In this document: positions 6,054 through 21,561 of the stretch, piece by piece
Layout: each line of letters opens with the position of its first letter
Position numbering within the stretch: position 1 is the stretch's first letter
Notes under the pieces: generated by a model
What the model was told of the DNA's origin: nothing
The model's database searches: none
What the model saw: only the letters and a program-made list of their open reading frames with translations
Program-made: the position numbers and the translations under genes
Source of the DNA: Opitutia bacterium
GTDB lineage: Bacteria > Verrucomicrobiota > Verrucomicrobiia > Opitutales > Opitutaceae
Assembly (NCBI GenBank): GCA_016187945.1
Contig: JACPIT010000005.1
Span: 992,001 to 1,056,000 of the forward strand
Reading direction: 5' to 3'
DNA length: 64,000 bases

Positions 6054-6207
6054 GCCGTTAGCCCGTTCCGAGCGCTCCATTTCGGCTCGCGCCGAAAATG
6101 TGAAGTCGGTGGTGTCCTAATTTGGATCGATGCTCTGAAAAAATCCTGTGGAGCTGGCATGGTAACGCACTCGACGGATCAAGCTCGCACGGCTACGGTT
6201 CGGCCCG

Positions 6208-6933
6208 ATGCGATTTCTTTCCCCGCTTCAGCGCCATTGGGACGACGTTAAGGGAAACGCAAAATGGGACTTGTTTAAGGAAGCCATGAAAGCGTCCCCA
6301 TTTTTCGCCTCTCTCGGGACTGGTATCCTAAACGCCATCAGGGAAGCGTCTTGGTGGCAGCTAATAGCCGGACTGTTTCTCGTTTACGTCGGCGCATGGC
6401 TCTTGGCCGCGCTCATTTCCGAGATTGCGTGGTATCTACGCAAACCGTCGCTAGAGGTCACGCTAGAGAATAAAAACACGGTCACCTATTGCAAAGACAT
6501 GCCCAGCATGGGAAGCCGGCTATTCATTCGGAATCCTCACAATAAAACACTCAAAATTGCGCTAGTTCGAATCGGTCAAATGGACACGAATTCGTCCCAT
6601 GTAAACACGGGCATGGCGGCTTTCCCTATCGATCTTTTCCGCGATTCGGACGGAGGGCCAAAACTGTTACATCCGGGCGAACTGTGGGAACTGGATTTCC
6701 TGCTCGAAGGGAAAGCGGTTACTTATTTTGGGAAGGAGTTCATACGAGCCCGTTTTCCTACCACTGGACATCTGCAATTCGTGGCGGGGGGTGATTATCG
6801 GCTTCATCTATGTATCTTAATCGAAGATTTTCCGATGCATGATGAACGGTATTTTTATAGAGTAAGACAAAACGGTTTCGATTATTTGACCGCTCATTTC
6901 AGTCGGATTCCGCGCTGGAAGAAGGCGGATTGA
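6208..6933 (+). CDS. Hypothetical membrane-anchored protein
   Basis: 241 residues. One clear transmembrane segment at about residues 50-73 (WWQLIAGLFLVYVGAWLLAAL) is preceded by a charged N-terminal region and followed by about 165 residues predicted to form a soluble, beta-rich domain. No recognised family motif was found. Codon use is A/T-richer than in the flanking chromosome. It is the first gene of the island and converges on the small lipoprotein gene at 6938, from which it is separated by 4 bp. Confidence 0.6.
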   Translation: MRFLSPLQRHWDDVKGNAKWDLFKEAMKASPFFASLGTGILNAIREASWWQLIAGLFLVYVGAWLLAALISEIAWYLRKPSLEVTLENKNTVTYCKDMPSMGSRLFIRNPHNKTLKIALVRIGQMDTNSSHVNTGMAAFPIDLFRDSDGGPKLLHPGELWELDFLLEGKAVTYFGKEFIRARFPTTGHLQFVAGGDYRLHLCILIEDFPMHDERYFYRVRQNGFDYLTAHFSRIPRWKKAD

Positions 6934-6937
6934 TTAC

Positions 6938-7132
6938 TTAACGCTTCCCGCTCTGCGCCTGCTCTTCCTTCGTAATCACGACCGATGTTTTACTCATTTC
7001 TGTAGCCTCACTTTTCACCGCGTTAATACGTGCCCTCTTCGCCTGTTCGGCGCGCCATTGCGCGTGAGTCATGGGGCGTTGAACACAACTGGTTAATGCC
7101 GCCGCTAGTGCGATAAGTAACACATGTTTCAT
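6938..7132 (-). CDS. Small lipoprotein
   Basis: 64 residues. The N-terminus MKHVLLIALAAALTSC ends in a lipobox-like LTSC, so Cys16 is probably lipidated. The remainder is short, charged and likely helical or unstructured. Its start overlaps the stop of the upstream exported protein by 4 bases (ATGA), indicating translational coupling. Function unknown. Confidence 0.6.
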   Translation of the reverse strand: MKHVLLIALAAALTSCVQRPMTHAQWRAEQAKRARINAVKSEATEMSKTSVVITKEEQAQSGKR

Positions 7133-7926
7133 TTTCCGAAAAACACGCGCTGTTTTTTCTCTTTTAATAAATCCAATTCACGCTGCTTACCTTGAATGGC
7201 TTGCCTATAGTTTGCGCGCGTCTGTTCGTCATGGGCCATGTAAGCTTCGGTTTCAATGCGCTGAAGTCGGGATATTTCACTCCTTAAATTTTCGATCTGT
7301 ATATTCAGTAGATCAATTTCGGACTGCCTGTCTCGATTCGGGGGTGGCGACACCGGAATATTTCGTGATATTGAGCGCGTTGGCTGTTTCTGAGTAGATG
7401 GTGGCAGTGGTTTGTTGAGACTGGGGTGCCTGCCACCCATGCCGTCTTTCACATAAAATCCTGACGTGAACCAATAGTTGGAACTAGATGCCCGTTGGGC
7501 CTCCAATTGGCGTTCTCGAAAGATTCGCCCCTCTTCCGAACGTGCTACCGCCGCCTCGGTTTCTTTCTGGGTGCGGGCCTTTTCCTGTGCGACTCGACGC
7601 TGCTCTTCTGTCGCCCGAGCGATGTAGTAGCTGCGCATCTCATATTCTTTGTCGGAATTTCTGGCCCGATATTCCGTTATGCGCCCGTCAATGACGACGA
7701 CTTGCGCGTCAACCCATCGATAAATAGCTTTATTTCCAGTCTTGGCCTTGGATTGAGGCTGGCCCTTTACGGCAAAAATCTCGGCCTCCGTCTTACCGAC
7801 AAAATCGATCTGCGCGAAAAGCGGAATTGGCGCAAAAAAAGTCAGCATGAGGAAGGTTGCGACTAATCGAGACGCATACGTATTCACAGAACCTAAGCAC
7901 ACCGTAGAAACCTGCGGTGTCAACAA
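7129..7926 (-). CDS. Exported protein with C-terminal coiled coil, unknown function
   Basis: Up to 265 residues. A hydrophobic stretch ending in FFAPIPLFAQ looks like a signal peptide, but it begins about 20 residues into the frame, so the true start may be the later GTG or ATG (mature protein from IDFVGKTEAE). The segment GKTEAEIFAVKGQPQ with a following RW resembles the small SmpA/OmlA-type repeat that often begins envelope proteins. The C-terminal 60 residues (SEIDLLNIQIENLRSEISRL) have heptad spacing of a coiled coil. It overlaps the small lipoprotein gene by 4 bases. Confidence 0.6.
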   Translation of the reverse strand: MLTPQVSTVCLGSVNTYASRLVATFLMLTFFAPIPLFAQIDFVGKTEAEIFAVKGQPQSKAKTGNKAIYRWVDAQVVVIDGRITEYRARNSDKEYEMRSYYIARATEEQRRVAQEKARTQKETEAAVARSEEGRIFRERQLEAQRASSSNYWFTSGFYVKDGMGGRHPSLNKPLPPSTQKQPTRSISRNIPVSPPPNRDRQSEIDLLNIQIENLRSEISRLQRIETEAYMAHDEQTRANYRQAIQGKQRELDLLKEKKQRVFFGK

Positions 7927-9631: not shown

Positions 9632-10123
9632 ATGCCGAAGTTGCCAACCTACGATAGTATTGAAATCACCGAAGCGCAGTTAGCAAGTTTTTGGAAAAGA
9701 TTCTGGAATCAAATCGAGAAAACCGAAGATTGCTGGTTGTGGATAGGAGCCAAAACCAAAGCCGGTTACGGCGTAATGTATGGAGCCGCTCATAAACCTA
9801 CCATTTACGCGCATCGGGCCTCATTTGAACTGCACAATGGACCAATCGAGAAAGGGAAAATGATTTGCCACAAATGCGACAATCCCGGCTGTGTGAATCC
9901 AGACCATTTCTTTCTGGGCACCCATTTGGACAATACCAGAGACATGGATAAAAAGGGGCGTCGTCGTTCGGTTTGTCGTCTCACCCCCGAACAAGTGCGC
10001 GAAATTCGACAAAATTATGTGCCGTGGGTTATTTCAAGAAGCGTATTAGCAAAACGCTACGGGGTTTCAGTGGGATGCATCGACGGGATTCTAATCGGCA
10101 AATCATGGAAAACGCTGGTCTAA
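9632..10123 (+). CDS. HNH (His-Me finger) endonuclease of homing type
   Basis: 163 residues. The core shows AHRASFELHNGPI, the zinc-binding pair CHKCDNPGC, and NPDHFFLGTHLDNTRDM, the classic HNH motif of phage-type homing endonucleases. Residues about 113-160 (RLTPEQVREIRQNY then SVLAKRYGVSVGCIDGILIG) form a helix-turn-helix DNA-binding tail like those attached to such enzymes. It would nick or cut a specific DNA site. The tight spacing after the transposase suggests co-transcription. No intron or intein context is seen. Confidence 0.88.
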   Translation: MPKLPTYDSIEITEAQLASFWKRFWNQIEKTEDCWLWIGAKTKAGYGVMYGAAHKPTIYAHRASFELHNGPIEKGKMICHKCDNPGCVNPDHFFLGTHLDNTRDMDKKGRRRSVCRLTPEQVREIRQNYVPWVISRSVLAKRYGVSVGCIDGILIGKSWKTLV

Positions 10124-16359: not shown

Positions 16360-17580
16360 ATGAACCAACCTTCCATCGTCCGCACCAACGCCGCTGAGCT
16401 CTACGACGCGTATGTGATGAAAAACTACGCCAAGGCCCCGCTCACGCTCGTGCGCGGAGAGGGCGTCTGGGCGTGGGACGACACGGGCAAGAAGTATCTC
16501 GATTTCGCGTCGGGCATCGCGGTCAACGCGCTCGGTCACTGCCATCCCGTCTGGGTCGAGGCGATCCGCCGCCAGGCCGGCGAGCTGATCCACTGCAGCA
16601 ATCTCTACCGCAACCCGAACTACGGCGAACTCGCCCGCCGCCTCGTGCAGCAAGCCGGTCCGGGCCGCGTCTATCTCTGCAACTCCGGCACCGAGGCCAA
16701 CGAGGCGATGATCAAACTCTCGCGCTTGCACGGCATTCGGAAGTCCGGCGAAGAGGGCAAGTGCTACAAGGTGCTCGTCGCCAAAAACGCGTTCCACGGC
16801 CGCACCTACGGCGGCATGAGCGCCACACCGCAGGAGAAAATCCAAAAAGGCTTTCGCCCGCTCGTGCCCGGCTTCGCCGCCGGCGAGTTGAACAACGTGC
16901 AGAGTTTCGTCGACCTGATCGACGAGCAGACCGCCGCGATCATGATCGAGACCGTGCAAGGCGAAGGCGGCGTCACGCCGTGCACCGACGAGTTTCTCTG
17001 GGGCCTGCGCCAGCTCTGTGACAAGCACAACCTCCTCCTCATGCTCGACGAAGTGCAGTGCGGCTTCGGCCGCACGGGCGCGTTCTACGCGTTCCAGCAC
17101 TCGGGCGTGCGCGCCGACGTGATCGGCATGGCCAAGGGCATCGCGAACGGTTACCCGATGGGCGCGATCTGGACGGCGGAGAAACACGCCGAACTTTTCA
17201 CGCCCGGCTCGCACGGCACGACGTTTGGCGGTTCACCGCTCGCCTGCGCCGCGGCGATCGCCGTGCTCGACGTGCTCCAACGCGAAGACCTCATCCGCAA
17301 AGTCGCCGTGAACGGCGCCGCTTGGAAAACCCAGCTCGAGCAACTCGCCGTCGAGTTTCCGAAGCAAGTCACCGGTGTCACCGGCCGCGGCTACATGCTC
17401 GGCCTGCGCCTCACCGGCGAGCCGGCGCCGTATCTTCCGCTGCTGCGCGAAGGCGGCCTGCTTTGCCCGATCGCCGGCGGCAACACGATCCGCCTGCTCC
17501 CGCCGCTCATCGCCACGAGCGAGCACCTCACTCTCGCGACCGACATCATCCGCGGCGCGCTCAAGAAAAAGGAAGCGTGA
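16360..17580 (+). CDS. argD: Acetylornithine aminotransferase
   Basis: 406 residues, class III PLP aminotransferase that makes N-acetylornithine. The signatures are the substrate loop LYRNPNYGELA, LCNSGTEANEAMIK, the cofactor Asp in LMLDEVQCGFGRTG and the PLP Lys in GMAKGIANGYPMGAI. Fourth gene of the arg run, with a 61-bp gap after argB. Downstream the pathway order is broken by an inserted cassette before argF resumes. Confidence 0.95.
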   Translation: MNQPSIVRTNAAELYDAYVMKNYAKAPLTLVRGEGVWAWDDTGKKYLDFASGIAVNALGHCHPVWVEAIRRQAGELIHCSNLYRNPNYGELARRLVQQAGPGRVYLCNSGTEANEAMIKLSRLHGIRKSGEEGKCYKVLVAKNAFHGRTYGGMSATPQEKIQKGFRPLVPGFAAGELNNVQSFVDLIDEQTAAIMIETVQGEGGVTPCTDEFLWGLRQLCDKHNLLLMLDEVQCGFGRTGAFYAFQHSGVRADVIGMAKGIANGYPMGAIWTAEKHAELFTPGSHGTTFGGSPLACAAAIAVLDVLQREDLIRKVAVNGAAWKTQLEQLAVEFPKQVTGVTGRGYMLGLRLTGEPAPYLPLLREGGLLCPIAGGNTIRLLPPLIATSEHLTLATDIIRGALKKKEA

Positions 17581-17842
17581 GGGATGCATGCACTCCGTGC
17601 GCGCCGGGAACGTGGTGAAAGGCTTGCAGGTTGAGTTAACCGGCCAAAGGCGCGCCCGTTCAGCTAGTCAAGAGTGTCGATTGACGACTTCGGCTCGACC
17701 CAGCCTCTTGCGGAACGCGTCCTGCCATTGGTTCGTTAATTCGATCAAAACGACTGCCACTTTACCTGTCGGATTCGCTTCCGATGGCGGAACGGACGGC
17801 GCTGACCAATTGACGCATGCAGTAAAATAGCGAACGTAAGGT

Positions 17843-18394
17843 ATGGGCGCTCTCCTTCCCCCTTCGACGCTGCGCTATTCGCGCGGAGTGAACCCTCGCC
17901 GAAACTTGCCGACGGCGTCCAAACGCGGCGAAAGTAATTTTCTGCGAGCGTTCGAGCGCGCCTATCTCGGTTCGCTTTCGCAAGGGCTCGCCCGTGCGGA
18001 GTTCGATCTAAGTGGTTACGGCATCGCCGACCTCGTATGGGTTTCGTGGCAGTCGAACCGGCGGCCGGACGAGGCCACTGCCGTCGGGTTTGCCGAGCGA
18101 CCAAAGGTGCAGATTGTCGCGTTCGAGTTGAAGCTTCAGGATTGGCGACGGGCGTTGCGGCAAGCGTTTCGCTACAGCTATTTTGCGAATCTCGCTATGG
18201 TGGTCGTCCCTCCGGCAGTTGCCCGACGGGCGCAACTGGCGCATTTTCGGCAGCTTGGCGTCGGGCTATGGACGTTTGACGCTGAGACTGGACGTATCCG
18301 CCGGTGCTTTACGCCCCGCAAGCGTCAACCTCGGAGCGCGGTTGCTCAACAGAAGGCGCTCGCCTCATTGCTCGCTCTAGCGAAGCTCCGCTAG
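17843..18394 (+). CDS. PD-(D/E)XK nuclease-like protein
   Basis: 183 residues. The pattern GIADLVWVSW (Asp63), then VQIVAFELKLQDWRRAL with Glu95-x-Lys97, is the metal-binding core of the PD-(D/E)XK fold. The following helix and strand (QAFRYSYFANLAMVVVP) fit the fold. Nuclease activity is likely but not certain, because some members are inactive. The start at 17843 has an AAGG ribosome-binding site. It converges on the unknown gene at 18377, with 18 bp overlap. Its composition is less GC-rich than argD and argF. It is the first member of a three-gene cassette inserted in the arginine cluster. Confidence 0.7.
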   Translation: MGALLPPSTLRYSRGVNPRRNLPTASKRGESNFLRAFERAYLGSLSQGLARAEFDLSGYGIADLVWVSWQSNRRPDEATAVGFAERPKVQIVAFELKLQDWRRALRQAFRYSYFANLAMVVVPPAVARRAQLAHFRQLGVGLWTFDAETGRIRRCFTPRKRQPRSAVAQQKALASLLALAKLR

Positions 18395-19579
18395 CTCGAC
18401 AAAAAGGTCCAGTCCTTCGCCGAGTCCAGCTAGGTGTCGTCCGTCGGATTTGGAATCGAGACGGAGCGGGCTGCGTTCTGCGATCAGTCCGTAGACCTCT
18501 TGGGCTCGGAGGAGCGCCTGCCGGCAGCGTGCGAGCCCTTCATGGATGTCTTCACGCACGAGCGAAGCGTGGAGGTGTTGGAGCGCTTCCCACGTTTGCA
18601 GCGCTTCCGCGTGTCGACCCGCTTGGTCCGCATCGACGAAGAGTTCGTCGGACGGCAAATCATTCAGAATTTCGGGAACTGCGGTGCGGAGCGCGTCCAC
18701 CTCAAACGCGGTTAGGCGATTCAGCAGCGCACAACTCAGGTAACGTGTGAGCGGCTGCCGGCCACGGCTCGGTTCGGGGTTGAATCGGTTCAGACTGAAC
18801 GCCCGCAGGTTCGCCCACCAGCCAGTGGCACCAGCATAGGCGCCGGCGACGCCGAGGAAGGGCGAGGCGAGGTCGGCATAACCGTTGATTACTCGGAAGC
18901 CATTTACCGCCAACGTGTGATTCAAGAGCATCCAGCCCGCCACGACATCGGTGTGGTAAACTTCGGCGCGCGCGTCCGCTTGGTTTACGGCGACGAGGAG
19001 ATAGAAACCATCGGGCGGATTATCCAGCGCTGTGATGTCCTCCAGGAATTCCACCAGTTCCGCCCGGTCCAACAGCGCGTCGCGCGATAGCGCGAGCGTG
19101 GCGTAAACGGGCGGCGTGAACCCTTCCTGCATCGCGACGCTCTTCGCGTGGCGGATGAAGTGTTTGGCGATGACCGCCTCGACTGAATTGCAGGAGCCGG
19201 GAATGACGATGTTCGGGGCGATGAGACCCGTGAGGTCATGGCCGGCTTGAAAGGTGAGCGCCCGGGCCAAATCATCGCGGACCCGGCTTTCGCTCTCTAG
19301 TTGGCTCCGGCGACGGGGCGTTAGGTAGTGCCGGCCATAATCCTCCAAGAGGCTCCCCAATCGGCTGTCAGGATTTCCTGCGAGAAAGCATGCGTAGTAT
19401 TGCGGGTCGAACAGGCGTTCGGCCTCGGCCGACTCACCAGCGAATTCGGCCAGCCGGCCCGCGAGTTTTTCCAACGGCAAATCACGGGGACTAAGGATCA
19501 CGCCATCGAGCGAGCCATTGCGCAGGCCGTCTCGGACTTTGTCGCCGTTTTGAAAACCATGTTGTGCGAGCAATTTCAT
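18377..19579 (-). CDS. Uncharacterised protein coupled to a Ser/Thr kinase
   Basis: 400 residues, soluble, with no signal peptide. The N-terminal GSLDGVILSPRDLPLEKLA followed by LFDPQYY, and later APNIVIPG, FYLLVAVN and GFRVINGYADLASPFLGVAG, have the strand-then-loop rhythm of a (beta/alpha)8 barrel, but I do not recognise the family and no catalytic set can be assigned. Its ATG overlaps the kinase stop by 4 bases (ATGA), so the two are translationally coupled and probably act together. It could be the kinase substrate or an effector enzyme. Its 3' end overlaps that of the nuclease-like gene. Confidence 0.65.
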   Translation of the reverse strand: MKLLAQHGFQNGDKVRDGLRNGSLDGVILSPRDLPLEKLAGRLAEFAGESAEAERLFDPQYYACFLAGNPDSRLGSLLEDYGRHYLTPRRRSQLESESRVRDDLARALTFQAGHDLTGLIAPNIVIPGSCNSVEAVIAKHFIRHAKSVAMQEGFTPPVYATLALSRDALLDRAELVEFLEDITALDNPPDGFYLLVAVNQADARAEVYHTDVVAGWMLLNHTLAVNGFRVINGYADLASPFLGVAGAYAGATGWWANLRAFSLNRFNPEPSRGRQPLTRYLSCALLNRLTAFEVDALRTAVPEILNDLPSDELFVDADQAGRHAEALQTWEALQHLHASLVREDIHEGLARCRQALLRAQEVYGLIAERSPLRLDSKSDGRHLAGLGEGLDLFVELAELR

Positions 19580-20484
19580 GCCGGATTCTCCAGTCGTTGG
19601 ATCAATTGCGCGAGATTACCGCGGAGCATCGGCTGCTTCTTGAGCAACTGGTCGATCAAGGCGGAAAACTCGGCAGAAATCTCCGGTCGCAAGTCGCGGA
19701 GCGACCGCGGCGGCGCGCGAATGGCGCGCGACAGTGTCATCACGAGGTCGTCACCTTGGCGGGCGATGGGATGTTCACGGGTTGCGTATTCGAAGACAGT
19801 GAGGCCAGCGGTGTAGAGGTCGGTGCGGTAGGTGAGACGGTCGCGAAAATCGAGGTTCGCCATTTCCGGCGCGAAGTAGCGATAGGTCGCCGGTGGCATG
19901 CGCTGTGAGGCTTCGTAGGTGAGGGAGGCTTCCGTCACGTCGTAGGCGATACCGAGGTCGAGGAGAACGAATGGTCGGTCCACCCGGGCAAGCTTCACCA
20001 CATTACCGGGTTTTATGTCGCGGTGAATGGTGTTCAGTTCGGAAATGGCCCGAATCGCGCGCAGCAGCGAGAGCAGGAGTTGGCGGCATTCCGTTTCCGA
20101 AGGCAGCGGCGCAGCCACCGGACCGCGGATCATCTGCCAAAGGTCTGGACCGTCGAGCCACTCTTCCGAGTAGCCAATGTATTCGGTCCCCGCGATTGTT
20201 TCCGTGCGGGCGTCAATCGACCCCAATTTGACCACTTCCGGGGTCGTGACGCGGGCGAGCAATTGCACTTCGCGCATGACTCGTCCGAGTTGTTCCCTGC
20301 GGATGCCCTGTTCACGGTCACTGGCGCCGCTGGCGGGCAGGAAGAGAAGTTTGAACGCTTCCTCCCCGCGCGCCGTTTGTGCGCGGTAGACCGCTTTGAA
20401 GCCGCCAGCGGTCAGGAACTGCAGCGTGCGCAACTCGGGATAAGCTTGGAGAATCGCAGATTCGGCAGGAGGTTGGAACGACAT
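19576..20484 (-). CDS. Hanks-type serine/threonine protein kinase
   Basis: 302 residues, a stand-alone kinase domain with no membrane segment or sensor domain. The glycine loop LTAGGFKAVYRA (24-35) is less Gly-rich than usual. Other elements are the ATP-binding Lys45, the alpha-C Glu72, the catalytic loop HRDIKPGN (154-161), the metal-binding DLG (176-178) in place of DFG, and APE (205-207), so activity is expected. The ATG at 20484 gives a full domain; upstream in-frame sequence is not kinase-like. It is divergent from argF and coupled downstream to the unknown 400-residue gene. Confidence 0.88.
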   Translation of the reverse strand: MSFQPPAESAILQAYPELRTLQFLTAGGFKAVYRAQTARGEEAFKLLFLPASGASDREQGIRREQLGRVMREVQLLARVTTPEVVKLGSIDARTETIAGTEYIGYSEEWLDGPDLWQMIRGPVAAPLPSETECRQLLLSLLRAIRAISELNTIHRDIKPGNVVKLARVDRPFVLLDLGIAYDVTEASLTYEASQRMPPATYRYFAPEMANLDFRDRLTYRTDLYTAGLTVFEYATREHPIARQGDDLVMTLSRAIRAPPRSLRDLRPEISAEFSALIDQLLKKQPMLRGNLAQLIQRLENPA

Positions 20485-20622
20485 ATTACGCTCGACGTAG
20501 CCGTCAGCTTTGGCTCCCGGTGCGCCCGGGGAAAGCTCCAATTGTGATCGGCGCACCTCTTGGATCTCGTTGCTTTTTGCTCTGGCGCAGTGGGGCGGCG
20601 GCGACTTAATCGGACAGTTTCC

Positions 20623-21561
20623 ATGAGACACTTCCTCAAGGACACCGACTTCACCCGCGCCGAGGTGGCGCAGATTTTCGATCTCGCGGCGCGCCTCAAG
20701 CGCGAGCGCGGCTCGCACGAGAAGCCGCTCGCCGGGCAGACGTGGGCACTGATCTTCTCCAAGAGCAGCACGCGCACGCGCGTGTCGTTCGAGGTCGGCA
20801 TCCACGAGCTCGGTGGCAATCCGCTTTTTCTCAATCGCAACGACATCCAGATCGGTCGCGGCGAATCCGTCGAGGACACCGCGAAGGTGCTCTCGCGCTT
20901 CGTGCACGGCCTGATCGTGCGCACCTACGAGCAGAGCGAGGTCGAGCGCCTCGCTACCGCCGGCACGATTCCGATCATGAACGCGCTGACGGATTTCCTG
21001 CACCCGTGCCAGATCTACACCGACGCGTTCACGATGACCGAGCGTTGGGCCGGCAACGGCGACCGCTTCGCCTCGCTGAAGGGCCGCAAGATCGCGTTCC
21101 TCGGCGACACGGCGTGCAACATGGCCTACTCGTGGATTCTCGGCGCGGCGCTCTTCGGCATGAAGATCAGCCTCGCGGGCCCGGCGCAATTCGCTCCCGG
21201 CGCGGACATCGACGCTCAGCTCGCGAAGGACGGCCTGCCGAAGAATTACCACTTCACGACCGATCCGTTCGAGGCCGTGAAGGACGCCGACGTCGTCTAC
21301 ACCGACGTCTGGGTGTCGATGGGCAAGGAGGAGGAGACGAAGGAGCGCATCCGCGTGATGTCGCCGTATCAGGTCACCGCGAAGCTCTTCGCCGCTGCCA
21401 AGCCCGACGCGTATTTCATGCACTGCCTCCCGGCGCACGCCGGCGAGGAAGTCGAGCAAGCGGTGCTGGATAATCCGCGCTGCATCATTTTCGACGAGGC
21501 CGAGAATCGCCTGCACGTGCAGAAGGCCATCATGGCCACGCTCGCGGCGGCGCGCCGGTAA
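20623..21561 (+). CDS. argF: Ornithine carbamoyltransferase
   Basis: 312 residues. It makes citrulline from ornithine and carbamoyl phosphate. The carbamoyl-phosphate loop SKSSTRTRVSFEVG, DFLHPCQIYTD, and the ornithine-binding Cys in FMHCLPAHAG are all present. The ATG at 20623 gives the family N-terminus (MRHFLKDTDFTRAEV); the frame extends upstream without similarity. It resumes the arginine cluster after the kinase cassette, whose kinase is transcribed away from it. Its stop is directly followed by a REPIN. Confidence 0.96.
   Translation: MRHFLKDTDFTRAEVAQIFDLAARLKRERGSHEKPLAGQTWALIFSKSSTRTRVSFEVGIHELGGNPLFLNRNDIQIGRGESVEDTAKVLSRFVHGLIVRTYEQSEVERLATAGTIPIMNALTDFLHPCQIYTDAFTMTERWAGNGDRFASLKGRKIAFLGDTACNMAYSWILGAALFGMKISLAGPAQFAPGADIDAQLAKDGLPKNYHFTTDPFEAVKDADVVYTDVWVSMGKEEETKERIRVMSPYQVTAKLFAAAKPDAYFMHCLPAHAGEEVEQAVLDNPRCIIFDEAENRLHVQKAIMATLAAARR

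Follow-up and report, generated by a model that had tools for sequence, protein, structure and literature searches.

A 64,000-nucleotide stretch of the genome of an Opitutia bacterium (assembly GCA_016187945.1, contig JACPIT010000005.1, positions 992,001 to 1,056,000; hereafter, the window) carries, between the arginine genes argD and argF, a compact group of three genes that encode a stand-alone Hanks-type Ser/Thr kinase, a 400-residue protein for which we found no named family (P400), and a putative PD-(D/E)XK nuclease. This trio is probably an antiviral defense system, and we could match it to no described one; since the same three genes are found in other bacteria, on an archaeal plasmid, and on predicted viral contigs, often near restriction genes, antiviral defense is the function to which comparisons of sequences and predicted structures point. 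A horizontally transferred three-gene module directed against phage or mobile elements would best explain these observations.

The trio occupies positions 17843 to 20484, where an earlier note made from the letters of the window had placed it, in a host genome of 5.47 Mb in 16 contigs. The nuclease-like protein (P0003, 183 aa) is encoded on the plus strand (17843..18394), and P400 (P0002, 18377..19579) and the kinase (P0001, 302 aa, 19576..20484) are encoded on the minus strand. NCBIfam identified argC, argJ, argB, argD, and argF, and also argG, in the window, which bears out the proposed order of argC-J-B-D, cassette, and argF; argD (16360..17580, plus strand) forms the left flank and argF (20623..21561, plus strand) the right flank. 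The translational coupling that had been proposed for the kinase and P400 genes is reflected in an ATGA shared by the kinase stop codon and the P400 start codon (19576..19579, minus strand), and the convergent P400 and nuclease genes share 18 bp at their 3' ends (18377..18394, both strands). Overlap at both junctions, as claimed in the note, applies within the trio but not at its outer ends, where ordinary gaps separate argD from the nuclease gene (17581-17842) and the kinase gene from argF (20485-20622). Composition also differs from that of the neighboring genes, as the note had stated: the difference in overall guanine-plus-cytosine (GC) content is small, with 61.1-62.0% in the three genes versus 62.5-67.4% in the six arg genes, and is much larger in GC content at third codon positions (GC3; 66-71% versus 84-91%, i.e., 13-25 points lower). 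A scan of 17500-20700 for promoters and terminators gave a count not above that in shuffled sequence.

While a genome scan with the single P400 sequence found no relative, an alignment-based profile gave 11 loci when each species was represented by a single genome; scans of IMG/VR added more, and PLSDB contributed two plasmids, so that 27 distinct P400 loci, including the window, were counted. Kinase, P400, and nuclease genes are all present, and tightly packed, at 20 of these 27 loci. Complete trios were found in the window and at L007, L008, L009, L010, L011, L013, L014, L016, L080, and L082, all of which, L013 excepted, can be placed in Verrucomicrobiota from their titles or relationships; in Nitrospirota (L018, from Nitrospiria, and L088, from a genome in the same phylum draw); on five IMG/VR contigs (L025, L026, L029, L031, and L032); and on plasmids of the archaeon Natribaculum breve (L037) and of Polaromonas (pPNAP03, L038). 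The named host groups thus number at least four, i.e., Verrucomicrobiota, Nitrospirota, Betaproteobacteria, and Halobacteria, and the recurring co-occurrence in varied hosts that the earlier note had put forward as support was indeed found. Closely packed trios at 20 distinct loci indicate an association beyond chance. Seven incomplete P400 loci were left out of the 20 (L012/L006, L015, L017, L021, L023, L022/L081, and L033); among these, L017 has kinase and P400 genes followed by the contig end, L021 and L023 have P400 and nuclease genes at a contig start, L022/L081 is a remnant in which the nuclease was not found, and L015, which is close to L008 and lies on an odd contig, has a truncated P400 gene with no kinase gene upstream. 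A kinase-P400 pair that occurs without the nuclease and always at the arginine locus, the pattern named in the note as speaking against its reading, was not seen: 24 of the 27 loci with P400 also have the nuclease (at two others any copy would be out of view past a contig end, and in the one remnant it was not found), and, in flanks inspected by eye, none of the other loci is situated between argD and argF. Phage and Escherichia coli records gave no match, and plasmid records gave none for the window P400, one for the L029 P400 query, and two for the L025 P400 query.

Among 19 measured loci, the distance between the kinase and P400 genes never exceeds 25 bp, and at 10 of the loci the two genes overlap; the nuclease gene is convergent with the P400 gene in 15, with overlap in 14 of those 15, and the remaining four have the order nuclease, kinase, P400 on one strand. 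L088, which is outside the 19 measured loci, likewise has convergent, overlapping nuclease and P400 genes. When pairwise identities of kinase, P400, and nuclease are compared across 19 loci, they are strongly correlated (Mantel r of 0.952 for kinase and P400, 0.883 for P400 and nuclease, and 0.896 for kinase and nuclease), and none of 2000 label permutations reached any observed value (best permuted value, 0.583). All three gene trees pair L014 with L016, L082 with L007, L025 with L026, L031 with L038, and L018 with L088 (support of at least 0.96), and the window groups with L011 with a support of 0.96 for the kinase, 0.67 for the nuclease, and 0.38 for P400; the deep branches of the three single-gene trees are poorly supported. 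The L018 proteins from Nitrospiria are about as near to the Verrucomicrobiota copies as those copies are to each other, which, together with the copy on an archaeal plasmid, speaks for horizontal transfer.

Neighboring genes that appeared promising by eye were typed with Pfam and PADLOC. Six complete trios, the contig-cut L017, and the remnant L081, eight loci in all, have restriction genes of type I, IIG, or III no farther than approximately 3.5 kb away, in agreement with the suggestion in the earlier note that such loci might sit in defense islands. A type IIG gene followed by darT and darG lies upstream of the trio at L008, the trio at L009 has an AAA/SMC-like gene as well as a type IIG gene nearby, and further type IIG genes are located immediately upstream of the kinase gene at L017 and upstream of the trio at L037. 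Twice, the trio is placed between hsdS and hsdR: at L016, the end of hsdS is directly upstream and hsdR approximately 2 kb downstream of the nuclease gene, and at L082, hsdM and hsdS are directly upstream and hsdR is downstream. Type III mod and res genes are immediately downstream at L018, and the L081 remnant adjoins pieces of hsdR. Other neighbors include a PIN_3 protein at L016, a D5-type primase gene near L029, and one gene approximately 7 kb from the trio at L007 that matches PADLOC PDC-S02. At L025 and L026, an ImmA/IrrE (PF06114) gene lies on one side of the trio and a tyrosine integrase gene on the other, a setting that is common for prophage cargo. For a rough background rate, 41 family genomes totalling 180 Mb were scanned for PF02384 (N6_Mtase); the 78 matches, among which some are fragments of a single gene, correspond to a chance of approximately 0.9-1.1% per stretch of 21-25 kb. 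Among 12 chromosomal loci (window, L007-L014, L016, L017, and L082; L018, L080, L081, L088, L021, and L023 were left out), PF02384 was found by Pfam near three (L008, L009, and L017), or an N6_Mtase near four if the PADLOC HsdM of L082 is counted; the corresponding binomial tails of 1.5e-4 to 2.6e-4 and 3e-6 to 6e-6 are an indication of enrichment only, because the control genomes were unmatched, the 12 loci were chosen post hoc, and flank lengths were unequal. At L088, a helix-turn-helix (HTH) gene with a weak RstR-family match and a small overlapping open reading frame (ORF), which resemble a toxin-antitoxin (TA) pair, are directly upstream of the trio (6151-7334). Calcineurin-like phosphoesterase genes adjoin the trio at L029 (238-996, minus strand) and L037 (7201-7890, plus strand); a metallophosphoesterase might possibly be a phosphatase counterpart to the kinase, although two cases are too few to establish this. 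In the window itself, an ORF at 9632-10123 resembles, by eye only, an HNH endonuclease with a C-terminal HTH.

Comparison with the same genus identified the trio as an insert. ArgF was searched in 13 genus members, including the host genome; 10 others carry the same argF, and the remaining two yielded nothing closer than a distant paralogue. In six of these 10 (G001, G005, G006, G007, G009, and G011), argD and argF are separated by no more than approximately 110 bp, in three (G002, G003, and G010), the two genes are 2.0-3.0 kb apart, with other ORFs in the interval, and in G004, no argD was found within 5.8 kb upstream of argF. DNA similarity between the window and the same-genus sites ends at approximately 17574 and resumes at approximately 20573-20618, so the inserted segment (17575..20618, approximately 3.0 kb) essentially equals the three genes. 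A search for P400 in the 12 other genomes of the genus (five of which are less than 90% complete) was negative, and five arg-site stretches from G001-G004 and G010 yielded none of the three trio proteins. Window ArgD is 93-94% identical to that of G001 and G007 and 89-90% identical to that of G002 and G003, while the corresponding values for ArgF are 74-75% and 93-94%; these contrasting identities may reflect recombination around the insert. More widely, P400 is present in four of 141 relatives and six of 387 genomes drawn from the phylum (host genome counted in both), and in two of 198 genomes drawn from the phylum of the Nitrospiria locus (centre genome counted). Among the six phylum genomes, only the host genome and G368 gave full-length strong matches; the other four comprise one cut sequence (G462), one remnant (G280), and two divergent forms (G238 and G465). 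No other trio was found between argD and argF in flanks inspected by eye. The nearest case, L006/L012 in an Opitutales metagenome-assembled genome, has the module approximately 5 kb from argD-argF and only the kinase C-lobe near a contig end, which may represent a broken gene or the end of the assembly. The argD-argF junction is also filled in other genus members (L075, 1440-3458; L076, 1786-4820; L078, 3482-5714); by eye, two of these genomes have a short nucleotidyltransferase-like ORF and another ORF at this position, and the third carries three unclassified ORFs. PADLOC gave no match for either nucleotidyltransferase-like ORF and NCBIfam none for that of L075. Within this Verrucomicrobiota genus, the junction has the appearance of a minor hotspot for insertions.

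With regard to the individual proteins, the kinase matches PF00069 with 81.1 bits (cut-off, 31.7; E 1.1e-22), and K45, E72, H154-R155-D156, N161, and D176 are kept in all 19 sequences compared, as would be expected of a Hanks-type Ser/Thr kinase with intact catalytic residues. The best PADLOC match was the PD-T4-6 kinase model (PDLC04042, E 2.2e-31, residues 22-293), and PADLOC mad6 was also matched (E 4.6e-22).

For the 400-residue protein, described in the note as of unknown family, no family, housekeeping or other, was found: searches of Pfam, NCBIfam, PHROGs, PADLOC, and PDB sequences with the window P400 gave no match, queries with six divergent members yielded nothing better than weak matches in Pfam or PADLOC (best E 0.014), and the best match in a PDB profile search had an E value of 0.48. 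An AlphaFold2 (AF2) model built from 11 sequences (pLDDT 85.9, pTM 0.89) predicts a TIM barrel followed by C-terminal helices. G8, D58, P59, P122, and Y193 are kept in 19 of 19 sequences and Q60 and Y62 in 18 of 19, and the conserved features comprise D58-P-Q-x-Y62, P122, G191-x-Y193, and G253...F261. In the model, DPQxY (58-62) directly follows strand 54-57, P122 follows strand 119-121, and Y193 is inside strand 191-198; such positions in or just after barrel strands make a site at the strand ends likely. The top PDB match in Foldseek was an archaeosine tRNA-guanine transglycosylase (TGT; 1iq8, E 4.9e-5, TMq 0.47; 1j2b at rank 8), and a search of BFVD placed a viral putative queuine tRNA-ribosyltransferase at rank 11 (E 0.028). 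Assignment of P400 as a TGT was not supported, however, as hhalign against seven PF01702 proteins from relatives gave probabilities of only 0.4% and 0.1%, in a comparison that is a modest test given that the seven sequences are closely related. As many unrelated TIM barrels score nearly equal to TGT in Foldseek and the profile comparison failed, we call P400 a predicted barrel of unassigned chemistry; its likeness to TGTs is that of a fold common to many unrelated enzymes.

The third protein is a putative nuclease of PD-(D/E)XK type. The fold has a helix-strand-strand-strand-helix-strand core with D and ExK at set places, and the AF2 model (14 sequences, pLDDT 83.6) has this order (helix 25-43; strands 48-56, 60-70, and 88-96; helix 101-111; strand 117-122), with D63 and E95-x-K97 placed in agreement with the rule. 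The residues are those that the note had named, D63 being given by 'GIADLV' and E95 beginning 'ELKLQDW'. E95, K97, and Q107 are kept in 19 of 19 sequences, the catalytic D, by motif, in 19 of 19, and E30 in 14 of 19. The 50 Foldseek matches listed (E 0.0099-1.2) include NucS, XisH, AspBHI, HindIII, MspJI, BamHI, and Cas4-Cas1-Cas2 chains, and the leading ones are mostly proteins that we take to be PD-(D/E)XK nucleases. While the trio nuclease shares core topology and the D...ExK motif with NucS, Cas4, XisH, AspBHI, and HindIII, searches of sequence families and PDB profiles linked it neither to these nor to any other protein. The spacing from D to ExK is 89-96 residues in L025, L026, L029, L032, L037, and L080 versus 14-36 in the other 13. 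An HTH domain in this long form was considered and dropped; among three long forms scanned, L032 and L037 gave no Pfam HTH match and L029 gave only sub-threshold matches to HTH_36 and HTH_Crp_2 (E 0.043 and 0.081).

Several known systems resemble the trio in part. PglW of type 2 BREX and variants of DndF are reported to join a NERD endonuclease domain to S/T/Y kinases (PMC12839542, PMC10853773). The trio likewise brings together a domain of restriction-endonuclease type and a Hanks-type kinase in the context of defense, but PglW and DndF have these domains in one large protein of a many-gene system, whereas the trio consists of separate small proteins together with P400. The trio kinase scored 17.3 bits against NCBIfam PglW (cut-off, 990), which does not place it in BREX/Pgl. 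It also matches the kinase model MAD6 of the methylation-associated defense system (MADS), with 56.5 bits against an NCBIfam cut-off of 460, which is likewise too low for MADS membership, although no search was aimed at a full MADS set around the trio. PD-T4-6, the source of the best PADLOC match, is a single-gene system, whereas the trio kinase comes with two partners. The portions of the PubMed Central literature that were available, a scope that excludes most subscription papers, held no description of the trio.

Taken together, the trio is patchily distributed and recurs near defense genes and on mobile elements, as is characteristic of candidate defense systems, and its recurrence and restriction-gene neighbors lend support to the proposal in the earlier note that it has the general form of an anti-phage or stress module. 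We consider it reasonably likely that the trio acts in defense with nuclease action under kinase/P400 control, and the details of any such mechanism are less certain. In the scheme that we propose, the kinase and P400, which appear translationally coupled in the window, would form a unit for sensing and control; P400 would bind or convert a nucleotide or nucleic-acid ligand linked to infection; the kinase would phosphorylate P400 or the nuclease and so release the nuclease; and the released nuclease, as effector, would cut phage or host DNA. The nuclease gene usually lies on the opposite strand from its controllers, which allows it to be expressed at an independent level. That bacteria, archaea, and prophage-like elements share an immune system of this kind, with a TIM-barrel protein that senses or makes an infection-linked molecule and a kinase that licenses the PD-(D/E)XK nuclease, has in our estimate slightly less than an even chance of being correct. 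A number of observations weigh against the defense interpretation. In addition to the window, five complete chromosomal trios (L007, L010, L011, L013, and L014) have, by eye, no restriction genes nearby. PADLOC (2023) holds no P400 or nuclease model. All Foldseek E values for the nuclease are above 1e-3, with unrelated folds mixed in. The parts of the trio are separable, as indicated by P400 and nuclease genes without a kinase gene at L033, nuclease genes with only a kinase N-lobe fragment and no P400 found at L034-L036, and a nuclease gene without kinase or P400 genes within approximately 5 kb at L027; at L028, a nuclease relative lies at a contig end, with no P400 found. Finally, matched divergence of the three proteins reflects joint travel and is compatible with common descent as well as with functional coupling.

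Among other explanations, a TA-like addiction module is unlikely but deserves the most weight; in such a module, the kinase-P400 pair would restrain a toxic nuclease (or kinase), the cassette would be maintained because cells without it are killed, and any effect on phage would be secondary. The trio is small, patchy, and packed, occurs on plasmids and IMG/VR contigs, and has DarTG (L008), PIN_3 (L016), and the HTH gene with its small ORF (L088) as neighbors. However, the convergent nuclease gene stands outside the coupled kinase-P400 pair, unlike the arrangement in most two-gene TA operons, and two large partners exceed what the restraint of one nuclease plainly needs; repeated siting in or near restriction operons points to defense, although TA genes also gather near restriction operons. 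Less probable still is modification-dependent restriction, in which P400 would mark DNA or RNA by modifying nucleobases in the manner of a transglycosylase, the nuclease would cut unmarked or marked DNA, and the kinase would act as a switch. The fold matches to archaeosine TGT and to the viral ribosyltransferase and the location of trios near or inside restriction-modification loci favor this explanation, but the hhalign probabilities and the nearly equal scores of unrelated TIM barrels argue against it. The position between argD and argF, together with the L006 module near the same genes, could suggest a regulator of arginine metabolism, or of general stress, that belongs to the arg operon and is inherited vertically, but this is contradicted by the distribution of the trio and is very improbable: P400 was not found in the 12 further genus members searched, the site is empty or otherwise filled in nine of the 10 genomes with this argF (argD was not seen in the tenth), neighbors at other loci are, by eye, unrelated, and GC3 of the three genes is well below that of the arg genes.

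We consider the trio a candidate system that is new within kinase-containing defense with a nuclease effector and that includes one protein family for which no name was found. If this interpretation is correct, it adds a defense system with an unnamed family, P400, whose range extends from Verrucomicrobiota to a haloarchaeal plasmid, and it would provide a compact case of a small kinase gating a nuclease in immunity. To our knowledge, the action of kinases in bacterial defense is poorly understood, and three small, separable proteins would be easier to study than PglW or MADS. The analysis also points to the arg-operon junction as an insertion spot in one genus of Verrucomicrobiota.

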